NCBI RefSeq assembly: GCF_006152065.1
Contig: NZ_VDFW01000002.1
Location: 62,001 to 126,000, forward strand
Direction: 5' to 3'
Length of the DNA stretch: 64,000 nt
Source of the DNA: Amycolatopsis alkalitolerans
Lineage (GTDB): Bacteria > Actinomycetota > Actinomycetes > Mycobacteriales > Pseudonocardiaceae
In this document: positions 26,983 through 30,657 of the stretch, one piece after another
Layout: each line of letters opens with the position of its first letter
How positions within the stretch are numbered: the first letter of the stretch is position 1
Notes under the pieces: model-generated
What the model saw: the letters and a program-made list of their open reading frames with translations, nothing else
Told to the model about the DNA's origin: nothing
Database searches by the model: none
Made by a program: the position numbers and the translations under genes

Positions 26983-27738
26983 GTGCTGTACCGGTTGCTC
27001 AAATGGGTGCTGCTCGGCCCGTTGCTGCGGACGCTGTGGCCGACCAAGGTCTCCGGCACCGAGCACATCCCGGCCACCGGCGGTGCCATCCTCGCCAGCA
27101 ACCACCTCGCGGTCGCCGACTCGTTCTTCATGCCGCTGCGCGTGCGCCGGCGGGTCACGTTCCCCGCCAAGTCCGAGTACTTCACCGAAAAGGGTTTCAA
27201 GGGCCGGCTGAAGAAGTGGTTCTTCACCGGGGTCGGCCAGATCCCCATCGACCGCTCCGGCGGGAGCGCGGCGCAGGCGGCGCTGGACACCGCGATCCGG
27301 CTGCTGCGCGAAGGCAACCTGCTGGGCATCTACCCCGAAGGCACCCGATCGCCCGACGGCAGGCTGCACAAGGGCAAGACCGGGGTCGCGCGGATCGCGC
27401 TGGAGGCCAGGGTGCCGGTGATCCCGGTCGCGATGATCGGCACCGAGAAGGTCAACCCGATCGGCTCGAAGATGTGGCGCCCGCGCCGGCTGGAGATCCG
27501 CTTCGGCGAGCCGCTGGACTTCTCCCGGTACCAGGGCCTGCAGGGCGACCGGTTCGTGGAGCGCTCGATCACCGACGAGATCATGTATGCCCTGATGGAG
27601 CTGTCGGGCCAGGAGTACGTCGACATCTACGCGGCACGGGCGAAGGAGCTGCTCGCGGCCGAGGCCGCCGGCGTGCGCGCCGCGGTTCCCGTACAGGCCG
27701 GCGCGGTCGACCGGATACCGGAGACCAAGGCCGGTTAG
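26983..27738 (+). CDS. plsC: 1-acyl-glycerol-3-phosphate acyltransferase (PlsC family)
   Basis: A 251-residue PlsC-type acyltransferase from a GTG. The catalytic HX4D is His41-Asp46 (NHLAVADS) and the glycerol-phosphate motif is YPEGTRS near residue 117; PVIPVAMIG follows. The enzyme transfers acyl groups to lysophosphatidate or a related acceptor at the membrane, and an N-terminal hydrophobic segment agrees. It is followed after 14 bases by the exoribonuclease gene. Confidence 0.88.
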   Translation: MLYRLLKWVLLGPLLRTLWPTKVSGTEHIPATGGAILASNHLAVADSFFMPLRVRRRVTFPAKSEYFTEKGFKGRLKKWFFTGVGQIPIDRSGGSAAQAALDTAIRLLREGNLLGIYPEGTRSPDGRLHKGKTGVARIALEARVPVIPVAMIGTEKVNPIGSKMWRPRRLEIRFGEPLDFSRYQGLQGDRFVERSITDEIMYALMELSGQEYVDIYAARAKELLAAEAAGVRAAVPVQAGAVDRIPETKAG

Positions 27739-27752
27739 CCTAGGGTTCTGCG

Positions 27753-28235
27753 GTGCGATTCTTCTACGACACCGAGTTCATCGAGGACGGCGTGACGATC
27801 GACCTGGTGTCGATCGGTGTCGTGGACGAGCGGGGCCGGGAGTTCTACGCCGTTTCGACTGATTTCGATCCGGGTAAGGCCGGCCCGTGGGTGCGCGAGA
27901 ACGTGCTGCCGAAGCTGCCCGCACCCGCCGATCAGGCCTGGCGCAGCCGCGAGAAGATCCGGGCCGACCTGCTGGAGTTCTTCGGCAAGCCGCCGGGCGG
28001 CATCGAGCTGTGGGCCTGGTACGCGGCCTACGACCACGTCGCGCTCGCCCAGCTGTGGGGCCCGATGCCCGCCCTGCCCCGGCAGCTGCCCCGGTTCACC
28101 CGCGACCTGCGGCAACGCTGGGAGGACGCGGGCAAACCGAAGCTGCCCGCCCCTCCCACCGACGCCCACGACGCCCTCGCCGACGCGCGCCACAACCTGG
28201 AGCGCTGGCGCGTGATCGAGCGCGTCCGCCGCTGA
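27753..28235 (+). CDS. DEDDh 3'-5' exoribonuclease (Rv2179c/AS family)
   Basis: A 160-residue exoribonuclease. Exo I is MRFFYDTEF with Asp6 and Glu8; an internal WAWYAAYDHVALAQLWG holds Exo II; HDALADARHNLERW at the C-terminus supplies the final His and Asp. This matches the short Rv2179c-type family, which degrades RNA 3' overhangs. GTG start, preceded by a TAGGGTTCTGCG spacer. It converges on aroG across a strong hairpin. Confidence 0.88.
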   Translation: MRFFYDTEFIEDGVTIDLVSIGVVDERGREFYAVSTDFDPGKAGPWVRENVLPKLPAPADQAWRSREKIRADLLEFFGKPPGGIELWAWYAAYDHVALAQLWGPMPALPRQLPRFTRDLRQRWEDAGKPKLPAPPTDAHDALADARHNLERWRVIERVRR

Positions 28236-28245
28236 GCATCCGTGG

Positions 28246-28300
28246 TGCCGTGAGGGGGTCCCTCATGGCACATAAGGGCATGAGGGACCCCCTCACGGCA
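28246..28300. terminator. Perfect 22-bp hairpin terminator
   Basis: Arms at 28246-28267 and 28279-28300 are perfectly complementary over 22 bp around an 11-nt loop. The core TGAGGGGGTCCCTCA is the type of short repeat often found between actinobacterial genes. It separates the convergent exoribonuclease and DAHP synthase genes. Confidence 0.85.
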
Positions 28301-28301
28301 T

Positions 28302-29384
28302 TCAGCGGTTCGCGACCGCCGCGGCCAGCTCGTCGAGCAGGTCCGCCGTGGACGCCCAGTCCAGGCAGGCGTCGGTGATGGACTGCCCGTAGGTCAGCTC
28401 CGAAGCCTTGCCCAGCACGAGGTCCTGCCGCCCGGCCTCGAGGAAGCTTTCGAGCATCACGCCGACGATGCCGCGTTCACCGTCGCCGATGCGCCCGGCC
28501 ACCTCCCGTACCACCTCGGCCTGCCGCACGTGGTCCTTGCCGCTGTTGCCGTGCGACGCGTCGATGATCACGCGTTCCGGCAGGCCGCTCTTGGCCAGCC
28601 GTGCGAGCGTGTCGCGTACGGTCTCCGCGTCGTAGTTCGGCCCACCGGTGTGACCGCGCAGGATGACGTGGCAGTCGGGGTTGCCCGACGTGGTGATCAG
28701 CGCGGCCAGCCCGTCGGTGTTGATCCCGGGGAACACGTGGCTCGCCGCCGCGGCACGCGCCGCGTCGACCGCGACCTGCACGTCGCCCTCGGTCGAGTTC
28801 TTGATCCCGACCGGCATCGACAGCGCGCTGCACAGCTGCCGGTGCACCTGGCTCGCCGCGGTCCGCGCACCGATCGAGCCCCAGCTCACGGTGTCGGCGA
28901 TGAACTGCGGGGTGATCGGGTCGAGGAACTCGCACCCGACCGGCAGCCCGAGCCGGGAGATGTCGAGCAGCAGCTTGCGCGCCATCCGCAGGCCCTGGTT
29001 CACCGCGTAACTGCCGTCCAGCGCCGGGTCGTTGATCAGCCCTTTCCAGCCCAGGGTCGTGCGCGGCTTTTCGAAGTACACCCGCATGATCACGTGCAGC
29101 CGGTCGCGCAGCGTTTCGGCCTTCTCGGCCAGCCGGATCGCGTAGTCGACGGCGGCCTCCGGATCGTGCACCGAGCACGGGCCGACGACGACGAGCAGCC
29201 GTTCGCCGGTGCCGTTCAGGATGTCGGCGGTCGCGGCGCGCCCGGCCGCGACGGTCTTCGCCACGGCCGTGTCCATCGGGTGTTCCTGCCGCAGCAGGGC
29301 GGGGGAGATCAGCGGGCTGATGCCCACGGTGCGCTGGTTGTCCAGCGACTCCAGGGGTTCCGCGGGGCCTGCGGGGATCTGCAT
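28302..29384 (-). CDS. aroG: Type I (AroFGH-class) 3-deoxy-7-phosphoheptulonate synthase
   Basis: A 360-residue type I-alpha DAHP synthase: GPCSVHDPEAA near residue 69, MRVYFEKPRTTLGWKGLIND near 100 (metal/PEP region), GCEFLDPITPQ, SWGSIGARTAASQVHR, and a C-terminal SITDACLDW. These match enterobacterial AroF/G/H. It condenses PEP and erythrose 4-phosphate, the first shikimate-pathway step. The ATG at 29384 has GAAAGGA ahead of it inside a possible hairpin. An aromatic-codon leader frame lies upstream. Feedback specificity cannot be read from the sequence. Confidence 0.92.
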   Translation of the reverse strand: MQIPAGPAEPLESLDNQRTVGISPLISPALLRQEHPMDTAVAKTVAAGRAATADILNGTGERLLVVVGPCSVHDPEAAVDYAIRLAEKAETLRDRLHVIMRVYFEKPRTTLGWKGLINDPALDGSYAVNQGLRMARKLLLDISRLGLPVGCEFLDPITPQFIADTVSWGSIGARTAASQVHRQLCSALSMPVGIKNSTEGDVQVAVDAARAAAASHVFPGINTDGLAALITTSGNPDCHVILRGHTGGPNYDAETVRDTLARLAKSGLPERVIIDASHGNSGKDHVRQAEVVREVAGRIGDGERGIVGVMLESFLEAGRQDLVLGKASELTYGQSITDACLDWASTADLLDELAAAVANR

Positions 29385-29441
29385 GGCGGTCCTTTCGTGA
29401 CCGGCCCGCCGTACCCGCCGAGCCGGTCTTTCATCCGGCTC
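29385..29441 (-). promoter_or_regulatory. Hairpins between the aromatic leader frame and aroG
   Basis: On the minus strand, after the leader stop, GAGCCGG and CCGGCTC form a perfect 7-bp stem (29420-29441) with an 8-nt loop. Next, GGCGG (29406-29410) can pair with CCGCC (29385-29389), with inner GGTC/GACC pairing, enclosing the GAAAGGA ribosome site directly before the ATG. These suit attenuation or translational sequestering that depends on ribosome position in the leader. Confidence 0.5.
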
Positions 29442-29452
29442 GGGTGGAAGGT

Positions 29453-29521
29453 TCAGCGCGCGGCGATCTCGCCGGCTGGCCCACCCAGGGCCGGCCCGCT
29501 AAACCAGAAATACCGCTGCAC
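29453..29521 (-). CDS. Aromatic leader peptide upstream of aroG (candidate attenuator)
   Basis: A 22-codon frame starting at GTG reads MQRYFWFSG then PALGGPAGEIAAR and stops at 29453. Codons 4-7 are TAT TTC TGG TTT, one each for Tyr and Trp and two for Phe, the three end products of the pathway aroG begins. An AGGG lies 8 bases before the GTG. The frame ends 68 bases before the aroG start. Leaders of this kind are known upstream of DAHP synthase genes in corynebacteria. Translation is inferred, not shown. Confidence 0.72.
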   Translation of the reverse strand: MQRYFWFSGPALGGPAGEIAAR

Positions 29522-29631
29522 GGGCGTGACCCTATCAAAGGCGACGGGCGCTTAACCGATCAAGGCCCGGCGCCGCTACGCTGGCGGTCGAGAACTGTGA
29601 CGAGACCGACTTTTCGAAAGGGCTGGTTCCC

Positions 29632-30657
29632 ATGCGAGTGGGGGTGCTGACCGGTGGCGGCGACTGCCCCGGGCTGAACGCGGTGATCCGGGCCGTGGTC
29701 CGCAAGGGGATCGAGATCATGGGCTGGGAGGTCGTCGGCTTCCGCAACGGCTGGCGCGGCCCGATGACCGGCGAGAGCCGGCCTCTCGGCCTCAGCGACG
29801 TCGAGGAGATCCTGACCAGGGGCGGCACGATCCTCGGCTCTTCGCGCACCAACCCGTACAAGGAGGACGGCGGCGTCGACAAGATCAAGGCGACGCTGGC
29901 CGACCAGCGGATCGACGCGCTGATCGCGATCGGCGGCGAGGACACGCTCGGCGTGGCGAAGAAGCTGACCGATGAGGGCATCGGTGTCGTCGGCGTGCCG
30001 AAGACGATCGACAACGACCTCGCGGCGACCGACTACACGTTCGGTTTCGACACGGCCGTGCACATCGCGACCGAGGCCATCGACCGCCTGCGCACGACGG
30101 CCGAATCGCACTACCGCGCGATCGTCGTCGAGGTGATGGGCCGGCACGCGGGCTGGATAGCGCTGCACTCGGGTCTGGCCGGCGGGGCGAACGTGATCCT
30201 GGTGCCGGAGAACCCGTTCTCCATCGACCAGGTCGTCGAGTGGGTCGAGCGGCGCTTCGAGCGCATGTACGCGCCGATCATCGTGGTCGCGGAGGGTGCG
30301 CTGCCCGAGGGCGGCGCAGAGATGCTGACCAGCGGCGAGAAGGACGCGTTCGGGCACGTCCGGCTCGGCGGCGTCGGCACCTGGCTGGCCGACGAGATCG
30401 CCGCGCGTACCGGCAAGGAGTCGCGCGCGGTGGTGCTCGGGCACGTCCAGCGCGGTGGCACGCCGACGGCGTACGACCGCGTGCTCGCGACCCGGTTCGG
30501 CCTGCACGCCGTCGACGCGGTCAAGGACGGCGACTTCGGCACGATGGTCGCCCTGCGCGGCACGGACATCGTGCGCGTCAAGCTCGCCGAGGCGACGGCC
30601 GAACTGAAGACCGTGCCCCCGGAGCGCTACGAAGAGGCCGAGGTCTTCTTCGGCTGA
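29632..30657 (+). CDS. pfp: 6-phosphofructokinase, PPi-dependent type
   Basis: A 341-residue phosphofructokinase: GGGDCPGLNAVIR at 8-20, GGED at 101-104, PKTIDNDL at 123-130 and MGRHAGWIAL. Position 104 is Asp and 124 is Lys. In ATP-dependent enzymes both are Gly, and Asp104/Lys124 mark PPi-dependent enzymes such as that of Amycolatopsis methanolica. It therefore probably uses pyrophosphate reversibly to phosphorylate fructose 6-phosphate. It diverges from aroG and overlaps the globin gene end-to-end by 31 bases. Confidence 0.88.
   Translation: MRVGVLTGGGDCPGLNAVIRAVVRKGIEIMGWEVVGFRNGWRGPMTGESRPLGLSDVEEILTRGGTILGSSRTNPYKEDGGVDKIKATLADQRIDALIAIGGEDTLGVAKKLTDEGIGVVGVPKTIDNDLAATDYTFGFDTAVHIATEAIDRLRTTAESHYRAIVVEVMGRHAGWIALHSGLAGGANVILVPENPFSIDQVVEWVERRFERMYAPIIVVAEGALPEGGAEMLTSGEKDAFGHVRLGGVGTWLADEIAARTGKESRAVVLGHVQRGGTPTAYDRVLATRFGLHAVDAVKDGDFGTMVALRGTDIVRVKLAEATAELKTVPPERYEEAEVFFG

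Follow-up and report, generated by a model that had tools for sequence, protein, structure and literature searches.

A probable translational attenuator responsive to tyrosine, phenylalanine and tryptophan upstream of the DAHP synthase gene aroG of Amycolatopsis alkalitolerans

What is the role of a short open reading frame that contains four consecutive aromatic codons and lies directly upstream of a gene encoding 3-deoxy-7-phosphoheptulonate (DAHP) synthase? We addressed this question in a 64,000-nt stretch of the Amycolatopsis alkalitolerans genome (contig NZ_VDFW01000002.1, positions 62,001 to 126,000), referred to below as the window, whose numbering is used throughout (Table 1). Inspection of the minus strand confirmed the 22-codon frame described in an earlier sequence-only reading, with its GTG start and its run of aromatic codons, as well as the distance of 68 nt claimed between its stop codon and the ATG of aroG (29384). 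The locus has a short ORF with clustered codons for end products, placed before a biosynthetic gene, an arrangement characteristic of leader-peptide attenuators. It is probable (we estimate a probability of about 0.6) that the element is a ribosome-sensing translational attenuator of aroG; this reading is built on sequence comparison and folding models. The leader would very probably allow ribosomes to sense a shortage of Tyr, Phe or Trp, and then to switch the gene on.

Table 1. Features of the leader region and of aroG in the window (arms named in the 5' to 3' direction of the transcript).
Feature	Position	Strand	Basis
Putative -10 hexamer TAGGGT, spaced 7 nt from the leader GTG	29529..29534	(-)	sequence and conserved TAnnnT spacing
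Leader ORF, GTG start, MQRYFWFSGPALGGPAGEIAAR, TGA stop, 22 codons	29453..29521	(-)	ORF and conservation
Regulatory codons TAT TTC TGG TTT (Tyr Phe Trp Phe), codons 4-7	29501..29512	(-)	sequence and codon counts
Arm A, CCGGC, beginning at a distance of 9 nt from the first base of the final aromatic codon; can pair with D	29490..29494	(-)	complementarity only
Alternative pairing of A: GGCCC (29492-29488) with A' GGGCC (29482-29478)		(-)	complementarity only
Arm B, GGGUGGG, within the leader; pairs with C	29480..29486	(-)	swap test and scan
Arm C, CCACCC, directly 3' of the leader stop; pairs with B or E'	29442..29447	(-)	swap test
Arm D, GAGCCGG; pairs with A or E	29435..29441	(-)	near-invariant pairing
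Arm E, GACCGGCUC (29428-29420), and E', GGGU (29416-29413); pairs with CD or F	29413..29428	(-)	swap test and alignment
Arm F, GGGCCGGUC (29407-29399), preceded by GGC (29410-29408)	29399..29410	(-)	swap test
aroG Shine-Dalgarno sequence, AAAGGA	29390..29395	(-)	sequence
Arm G', GACCGCC, between the Shine-Dalgarno sequence and ATG	29385..29391	(-)	swap test and scan
aroG, class I DAHP synthase, 360 aa	28302..29384	(-)	NCBIfam TIGR00034 aroFGH, 2.4e-144

The conservation of the leader was analyzed with a detector applied to 246 regions upstream of class I DAHP synthase genes; 80 of these belong to named loci and one to the window, and 165 are from further loci. On the sense strand 184 of the 246 regions passed, compared with 0 of 246 on the antisense strand and 2 of 4,920 Markov shuffles, which is more than chance would give; the sequence-only reading had already called four consecutive aromatic codons at such a place very unlikely by chance. 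The figure of 184 includes repeats; among distinct regions 173 of 235 carry the leader. Codons for Phe, Trp and Tyr are all present in 157 of these 173 leaders, the others being devoid of Trp (12), Tyr (2) or Phe (2), and the order and number of the aromatic residues differ between leaders. A lack of conserved aromatic codons in relatives would have spoken against a regulatory role; the codons are in fact kept, since 73 of the 74 actinobacterial loci among the 80 named ones have the leader. The one exception is Antrihabitans cavernicola, and the leader is also absent from the six non-actinobacterial named loci (Chloroflexi, Thermomicrobiales, Deltaproteobacteria, Plesiocystis). An even sample of the class (78 matches) gave 48 leaders at 77 examined genes. 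Family f19, with no leader at any of its 22 examined loci (23 matched), makes up 22 of the 29 leader-less genes of this sample.

Within the family of the window's own enzyme, the leader precedes 61 of 65 examined orthologues with at least 60% identity versus 2 of 24 below 60%. This family comprises 106 places, 105 besides the window, of which 89 were counted and one more was examined as L082; none of the remaining 15 reaches 60% identity. In the count, 29 of the family loci were entered with a single identity value, in every case at least 78%. The leader goes with the primary orthologue in this family. Divergent class I DAHP synthases (47-59% identity) at loci L222, L223, L225-L228 and L231-L246 have no leader, and several leader-less divergent copies share a genome with a leader-bearing copy (such as G515, G498, G476, G445 and G408). 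These copies are perhaps secondary-metabolism enzymes released from control.

The regions missed by the detector are of several kinds: (i) L116 and L124 keep the RNA arms and have a longer leader, (ii) L102 and L105 have two aromatic codons, (iii) L189 and L192 look degenerate, (iv) L103 is masked and (v) L040 is without any sign of a leader. A further 42 places gave 30 loci, of which 20 were scored together with L250. Outside the class, Phe/Tyr-rich short ORFs were observed before DAHP synthase genes of family f58, at 6 of 14 scored loci (L254, L255, L257, L263, L275 and L276), and their aromatic clusters contain no Trp. The Rfam covariance models gave no gathering matches in the window, and none at the leader in seven loci at E values up to 1.

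The Tyr and Phe codons of the leaders are biased towards rare synonyms. In 74 leaders the ratio of TAT to TAC is 69:6 versus 1:397 in the downstream genes, and that of TTT to TTC is 81:43 versus 5:386; the corresponding background values in 37 long ORFs of the window are 19:282 and 10:417. The final Phe/Tyr codon is TTT in 176 of the 184 leaders. It could also be retained by constraint on the RNA; the TAT position lies outside the RNA arms.

These codons bear on the idea that the leader encodes an arrest peptide, in which the nascent chain would stall the ribosome and the aromatic residues would be read as a peptide motif instead of as sensors of tRNA charging. The conservation of the residues following the aromatic run (S-x-P-A-x-G-G) is compatible with such a peptide, but the codons of this stretch constitute arms A, B and A' and are conserved as nucleotides. 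Moreover, rare synonymous codons, which a peptide sensor does not need, are kept, the aromatic residues vary in order and number, and the QR codons are retained as CAGCG even in a different reading frame (GTG TCA GCG in L015 and L020). We consider an arrest peptide highly improbable. The same CAGCG, at the 5' end of the leader, is able to pair with CGCUG at the leader's own stop codon (29454-29518 in the window).

The AGGG sequence ahead of the GTG had been taken as a ribosome-binding site. This assignment was wrong: AGGG falls within TAGGGT, a -10-like hexamer that fits the actinobacterial form TAnnnT. Such a box is located 6, 7 or 8 nt 5' of the start in 74 of 74 leaders for which it was favoured and not required. 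In the 173 distinct leaders, where (as in the set of 184) the box was part of the detection rule, the spacing is 7 nt in 141 cases, 6 nt in 25 and 8 nt in 7. A strict scan for two sigma-70 hexamers gave no promoter match at the leader. Because the TAnnnT box sits 6-8 nt before the start codon, the leader mRNA is most likely leaderless, and transcription would start at or next to position 29521.

The RNA between the leader and aroG contains arms with more than one potential partner. Among the resulting structures is the perfect 7-bp stem GAGCCGG/CCGGCTC (29441-29435/29426-29420), found as the sequence-only reading had given it and corresponding to D:E. The second structure proposed there, enclosing the aroG ribosome site, was found as well: the Shine-Dalgarno (SD) sequence may be closed either by an outer stem, GGCGG/CCGCC (29410-29406/29389-29385), or by an inner stem, CGGUC/GACCG (29403-29399/29391-29387). 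Arm F can form 9 bp with E or pair with G' over the ribosome site. The 140-nt leader region is more stable than 199 of 200 shuffles (z -3.0).

To these arms we applied a swap test, in which pairing within a locus is compared with pairing between arms swapped among loci (38 non-redundant sequences of 95, 2000 permutations); the start of aroG was not located by the script in 25 of the 184 loci, and these were dropped from start-dependent tests. The expected co-variation of the paired arms was borne out for B:C, E:F (z -5.4) and F:G' (z -4.8), each at 0 of 2000 permutations, and more weakly for C:E' (12 of 2000), with the proviso that such tests do not fully remove relatedness among loci. The pairs E:G', B:F, C:F, D:F, D:G', A':E, A':C, A':G' and B:E' were not significant (171 to 1761 of 2000). 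We rejected A:F as the final switch; its pairing is perfect in Rhodococcus but does not co-vary (758 of 2000). A:A', A:D (77 of 2000), D:E and CAGCG:CGCUG are nearly invariant in this terminator-less class and vary too little for the test, so that the pairing of A:D and D:E rests on complementarity.

When 1,162 and 1,128 segment pairs were scanned without bias, B:C (z -5.1) and F:G' (z -4.4) came out at the top, the best F:G' segments spanning the outer stem (GGCGG:CCGCC in the window). E:F reached z -3.9, level with two uninterpreted combinations, namely the aromatic codons with the 3' part of the leader (z to -4.2) and parts of the leader with the start of aroG (z to -3.9); the largest positive z was 3.5. 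In an alignment of 50 sequences, 91.1% of the E:F cells are paired (0 of 500 shuffles), and 19 cells show double changes compared with 10.0 in shuffles (0 of 500). These double changes are confined to two base pairs, and the number of double-change pairs and of pair types was the same as in shuffles (472 and 452 of 500, respectively). D:E is paired in 99.4% of cells, with no double change. Taken from the sequences, these results support the view that B:C, C:E', E:F and F:G' alternate, and would form mutually exclusive structures between the leader and the gene.

Counted from the first base of the last Phe/Tyr codon, the predicted AB:CD duplex begins at a distance of 8 nt in 62 of the 88 distinct leaders that belong to the terminator-less class; among the other leaders the distance is 7 nt in 34 of 85, and 3-6 nt in most of the rest. 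Because AB:CD begins 7-8 nt downstream, a ribosome on the last Phe/Tyr codon would stand at the edge of the duplex.

We folded the RNA with ribosome masks, comparing in 38 sequences the energy needed to open the aroG site with the ribosome stalled and with the ribosome at the stop codon, with the ribosome edge varied. The "Trp" and "Tyr" masks were placed at constant distances, one and three codons 5' of the last Phe/Tyr codon, where Trp and Tyr are most often found, and do not coincide with the real codon in every sequence. With the edge at +12, a stall on the last Phe/Tyr codon made the site easier to open than it is at the stop in 28 of the 38 sequences, a stall one codon further upstream did so in 30 and a stall three codons upstream in 32; the site was harder to open in 3 sequences in each case. 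The respective energies in the window are 6.1, 6.8 and 7.4 kcal/mol, versus 12.3 kcal/mol at the stop. The effect of the last Phe codon vanishes at +15 (lower in 19, higher in 15 of 38) and +17 (14 and 16), and the stalls one and three codons upstream keep a lower opening energy than the stop up to +15. For a stall at the last Phe codon, the direction of the switch hinges on where the ribosome edge is placed: the ribosome would stand at the border of the duplex and may or may not open it. Dinucleotide shuffling of the middle region removes the mean effect (-0.1 to -0.3 versus -2.1 to -2.8). Chimeras of the leader of one locus and the post-leader of another show an equal effect, which indicates that it rests on an invariant shared core.

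In the minimum-energy folds of the window, a ribosome on the last Phe codon leaves AB:CD and E:F, and a ribosome at the stop codon leaves D:E and the hairpin closing the SD sequence. With stalls at Trp or Tyr, AB:CD is replaced by an A:A' hairpin together with D:E, and in all ribosome states the SD sequence keeps its GGA mostly paired. On these models, the proposed direction of the switch (ON when the ribosome is stalled) is likely.

A rival reading is a classical four-arm arrangement, in which the stalled ribosome masks A, D:E forms, and E:F, lying just upstream, blocks the ribosome site, F:G' being secondary. If the last Phe codon stood in the A site, a ribosome reaching to +15 would indeed cover most of A, and E:F pairs within loci in both the swap test and the alignment. 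Furthermore, a first mask test (edge at +15, 50 sequences, compared with unmasked RNA) found the site easier to open in 9 and harder in 31 sequences for the last Phe codon. In this test the numbers at the other positions were 23 and 17 for Trp, 31 and 9 for Tyr, and 9 and 26 for the stop codon. Against this arrangement, F:G', which encloses the SD sequence, co-varies about as strongly as E:F. A ribosome would also be too distant to mask A at 55 of 187 Trp codons, which lie 2-5 codons upstream of the last Phe/Tyr codon, and at 140 of 200 Tyr codons, which lie three codons upstream of it. Finally, stalls one and three codons upstream ease opening relative to the stop up to +15. We regard the four-arm arrangement as unlikely.

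The locus was also inspected for signs of transcriptional control. No terminator-like site was found at 29300-29650, and an intrinsic terminator is not recognizable there. The claim that control acts on translation and not on termination is supported for the clade of the window by this lack of a U-tract, together with the co-varying hairpin over the aroG ribosome site. Many relatives with the same leader do have a GC-rich hairpin followed by a U-tract between D and E (L051-L058, L061, L062, L064-L066, L069, L072-L074, L076-L080 and many others); a loose script rule counts 84 such loci, several of which are false.

In the terminator-bearing class, the swap test detected co-variation of AB:CD (0 of 2000), of CD with the region after the terminator (0 of 2000), of that region with F (1 of 2000), and of A:A' and A':C, the latter involving a segment that overlaps B (0 of 2000 each). 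F:G' was not significant in this class (147 of 2000, n=25). Only two signals of the scan clearly exceed its noise, the terminator and AB:CD; the background reaches z +4.8, and one uninterpreted pair -5.1. A search for an antiterminator in these relatives was unsuccessful, no arm clearly co-varying with the 5' arm of the terminator (A' 97, AB 572 of 2000); CD pairs with this arm less well than swapped CDs do (1998 of 2000).

If Rho or an unrecognised terminator controlled aroG, the hairpin near the SD sequence would be incidental. The hairpins of the relatives are in line with such transcriptional control, as is the related aroR leader of C. glutamicum, for which stalling is reported in PMC11802643 to raise transcription. 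Nevertheless, the window has no terminator-like site, and in the relatives the cost of the terminator hairpin shifts by more than 0.5 kcal/mol with ribosome position in only 18 of 84 loci. In addition, a phylogeny of 81 DAHP synthases groups all 51 terminator-less rows, which comprise the window and 50 named loci (L008 and L026 having been assigned to this class by hand), with one leader-less row in a single clade (support 100/99), and this clade has kept the arms. Transcriptional control of aroG in the window thus seems improbable. Since the terminator-less rows form one clade and terminator-bearing leaders are found to either side of the midpoint chosen for drawing the tree, the terminator was probably lost once.

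The best reading is therefore a terminator-less, translational, pan-aromatic attenuator whose relatives outside the clade mostly carry a U-tract hairpin. According to this model, transcription would begin at the leader GTG, and ribosomes would load on the bare 5' end. When charged Tyr-, Phe- or Trp-tRNA is scarce, the ribosome would halt at the rare codons for these residues, immediately 5' of arm A; AB:CD would be kept, E would be free to pair with F, and the aroG ribosome site would stay open (ON). When all three are charged, the ribosome would open AB:CD and rest at the stop codon over C, CD would pair with E-E', F with G', and the ribosome site would be shut (OFF). Observed are the leader sequence and its conservation, the pairing of B:C, E:F and F:G' (more weakly of C:E') within loci and the bias to rare codons; from these we infer the leaderless start, the translation, the stalling, the order of the states and the direction of the switch. 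Tentatively, and at somewhat less than even odds, we further propose that a single pan-aromatic leader element, much older than the genus, controls class I DAHP synthase genes of many actinobacteria (48 of 77 sampled genes of the class have it), and that in a clade of Pseudonocardiaceae and Nocardiaceae this element lost its terminator and turned into a translational switch of five arms, with the first step reversed, so that a starved ribosome preserves the first hairpin and a well-fed one destroys it.

The trp and pheA attenuators of Escherichia coli likewise combine end-product control codons with alternating RNA arms; in these systems arm 1 is covered by the stalled ribosome, and a terminator serves as the switch. 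In the element described here, arm A begins 9 nt downstream from the first base of the final control codon, and a hairpin over the SD sequence stands at the end of the chain.

Attenuation at corynebacterial DAHP synthase genes, invoked in the sequence-only reading, is described for C. glutamicum aroR before aroF in three articles: an aroF leader peptide is named in PMC4046766, aroR is called a translational regulatory leader in PMC7356990, and the AroR leader (Phe-Tyr-Phe) is reported to respond to Phe but not to Tyr limitation, with expression raised on Phe starvation, in PMC11802643. The window resembles this system in having a short aromatic-codon leader before a DAHP synthase gene. Unlike aroR, which is described as acting on transcription (PMC7356990 excepted), the window has a Tyr-Phe-Trp-Phe run and lacks a terminator, and a hairpin can cover its ribosome site. 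A comparable locus is L250, from the order of the window: it has the leader MRMWRFYFEKAPATRLT, TAnnnT at 7 nt, the arms GGCUCCGG...CCGGAGCC and a U-tract hairpin, and its arms and gene are similar to those of the window. Class I DAHP synthase was found at E 1e-20 in 1 of 13 genomes of the genus of L250.

Other actinobacterial parallels exist. The mycobacterial polycysteine ORFs (Canestrari et al. 2020, as cited in PMC9031893 and PMC13236596) are leaderless short ORFs with runs of the sensed amino acid that act by translation attenuation; in our case the leaderless start is predicted, three aromatic residues take the place of cysteine, and other genes are concerned. The trp, ilvB and leuA attenuators (Seliverstov et al. 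2005, PMC1262725) and the S. lividans leader peptides listed in PMC8079986 are leader peptides as well, several of them leaderless and several without a clear terminator, and the excerpts of these two sources seen by us do not name a DAHP synthase leader. Among the literature matches listed, with most subscription journals outside their coverage, the leader is unreported outside corynebacteria. The element is thus of a kind already known from C. glutamicum aroR, and the form found in the window is a new variant.

As regards the genome of A. alkalitolerans, a genome search showed that aroG is the sole match of its kind. A class II DAHP synthase is encoded on a different contig, and a script of a similar sort found no aromatic leader at that locus. 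The motif TGGTTTA followed by six free bases and CSGSC occurs at two sites in the genome (the leader and one other), and its backward control also at two. Genes encoding RNase AS and an acyltransferase adjoin aroG (26983-29384), as they presumably do the class II aroG of M. tuberculosis; a class II gene may have been replaced by a class I gene at one locus.

Between aroG and the convergent RNase AS gene, we observed a 22-bp perfect inverted repeat (TGCCGTGAGGGGGTCCCTCATG; 28246-28300), which caused chance miRNA matches in Rfam. Its 18-base half-site has 40 genome copies at no more than one mismatch (control 0), one of them directly 3' of the class II DAHP synthase match (C9:88858), and the repeat is a genome-wide palindromic one. 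The sequence TTGATCGGT (29555-29563), common to the Pseudonocardiaceae loci L001, L003, L012 and L013, lies upstream of the putative leader promoter, in the interval that in the window separates aroG from a divergent phosphofructokinase gene; it is a possible operator or divergent promoter. In Rhodococcus globerulus (L005, 1101-1233, minus strand), a cobalamin riboswitch match is located just upstream of the leader, on the opposite strand.

Actinobacteria are a main source of drugs made from aromatic precursors. If the proposed reading is true, their DAHP synthase genes would carry a cis-acting switch that reads the supply of Tyr, Phe and Trp jointly at the entry to the pathway, and edits of the leader are predicted to raise aromatic flux in Amycolatopsis-like producers. 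The distribution of the leader would also hint at how divergent copies of DAHP synthase evade control (it is absent from 22 of the 24 examined), and the element would offer a change that can be traced on a tree, from terminator-bearing leaders to control at the ribosome site.
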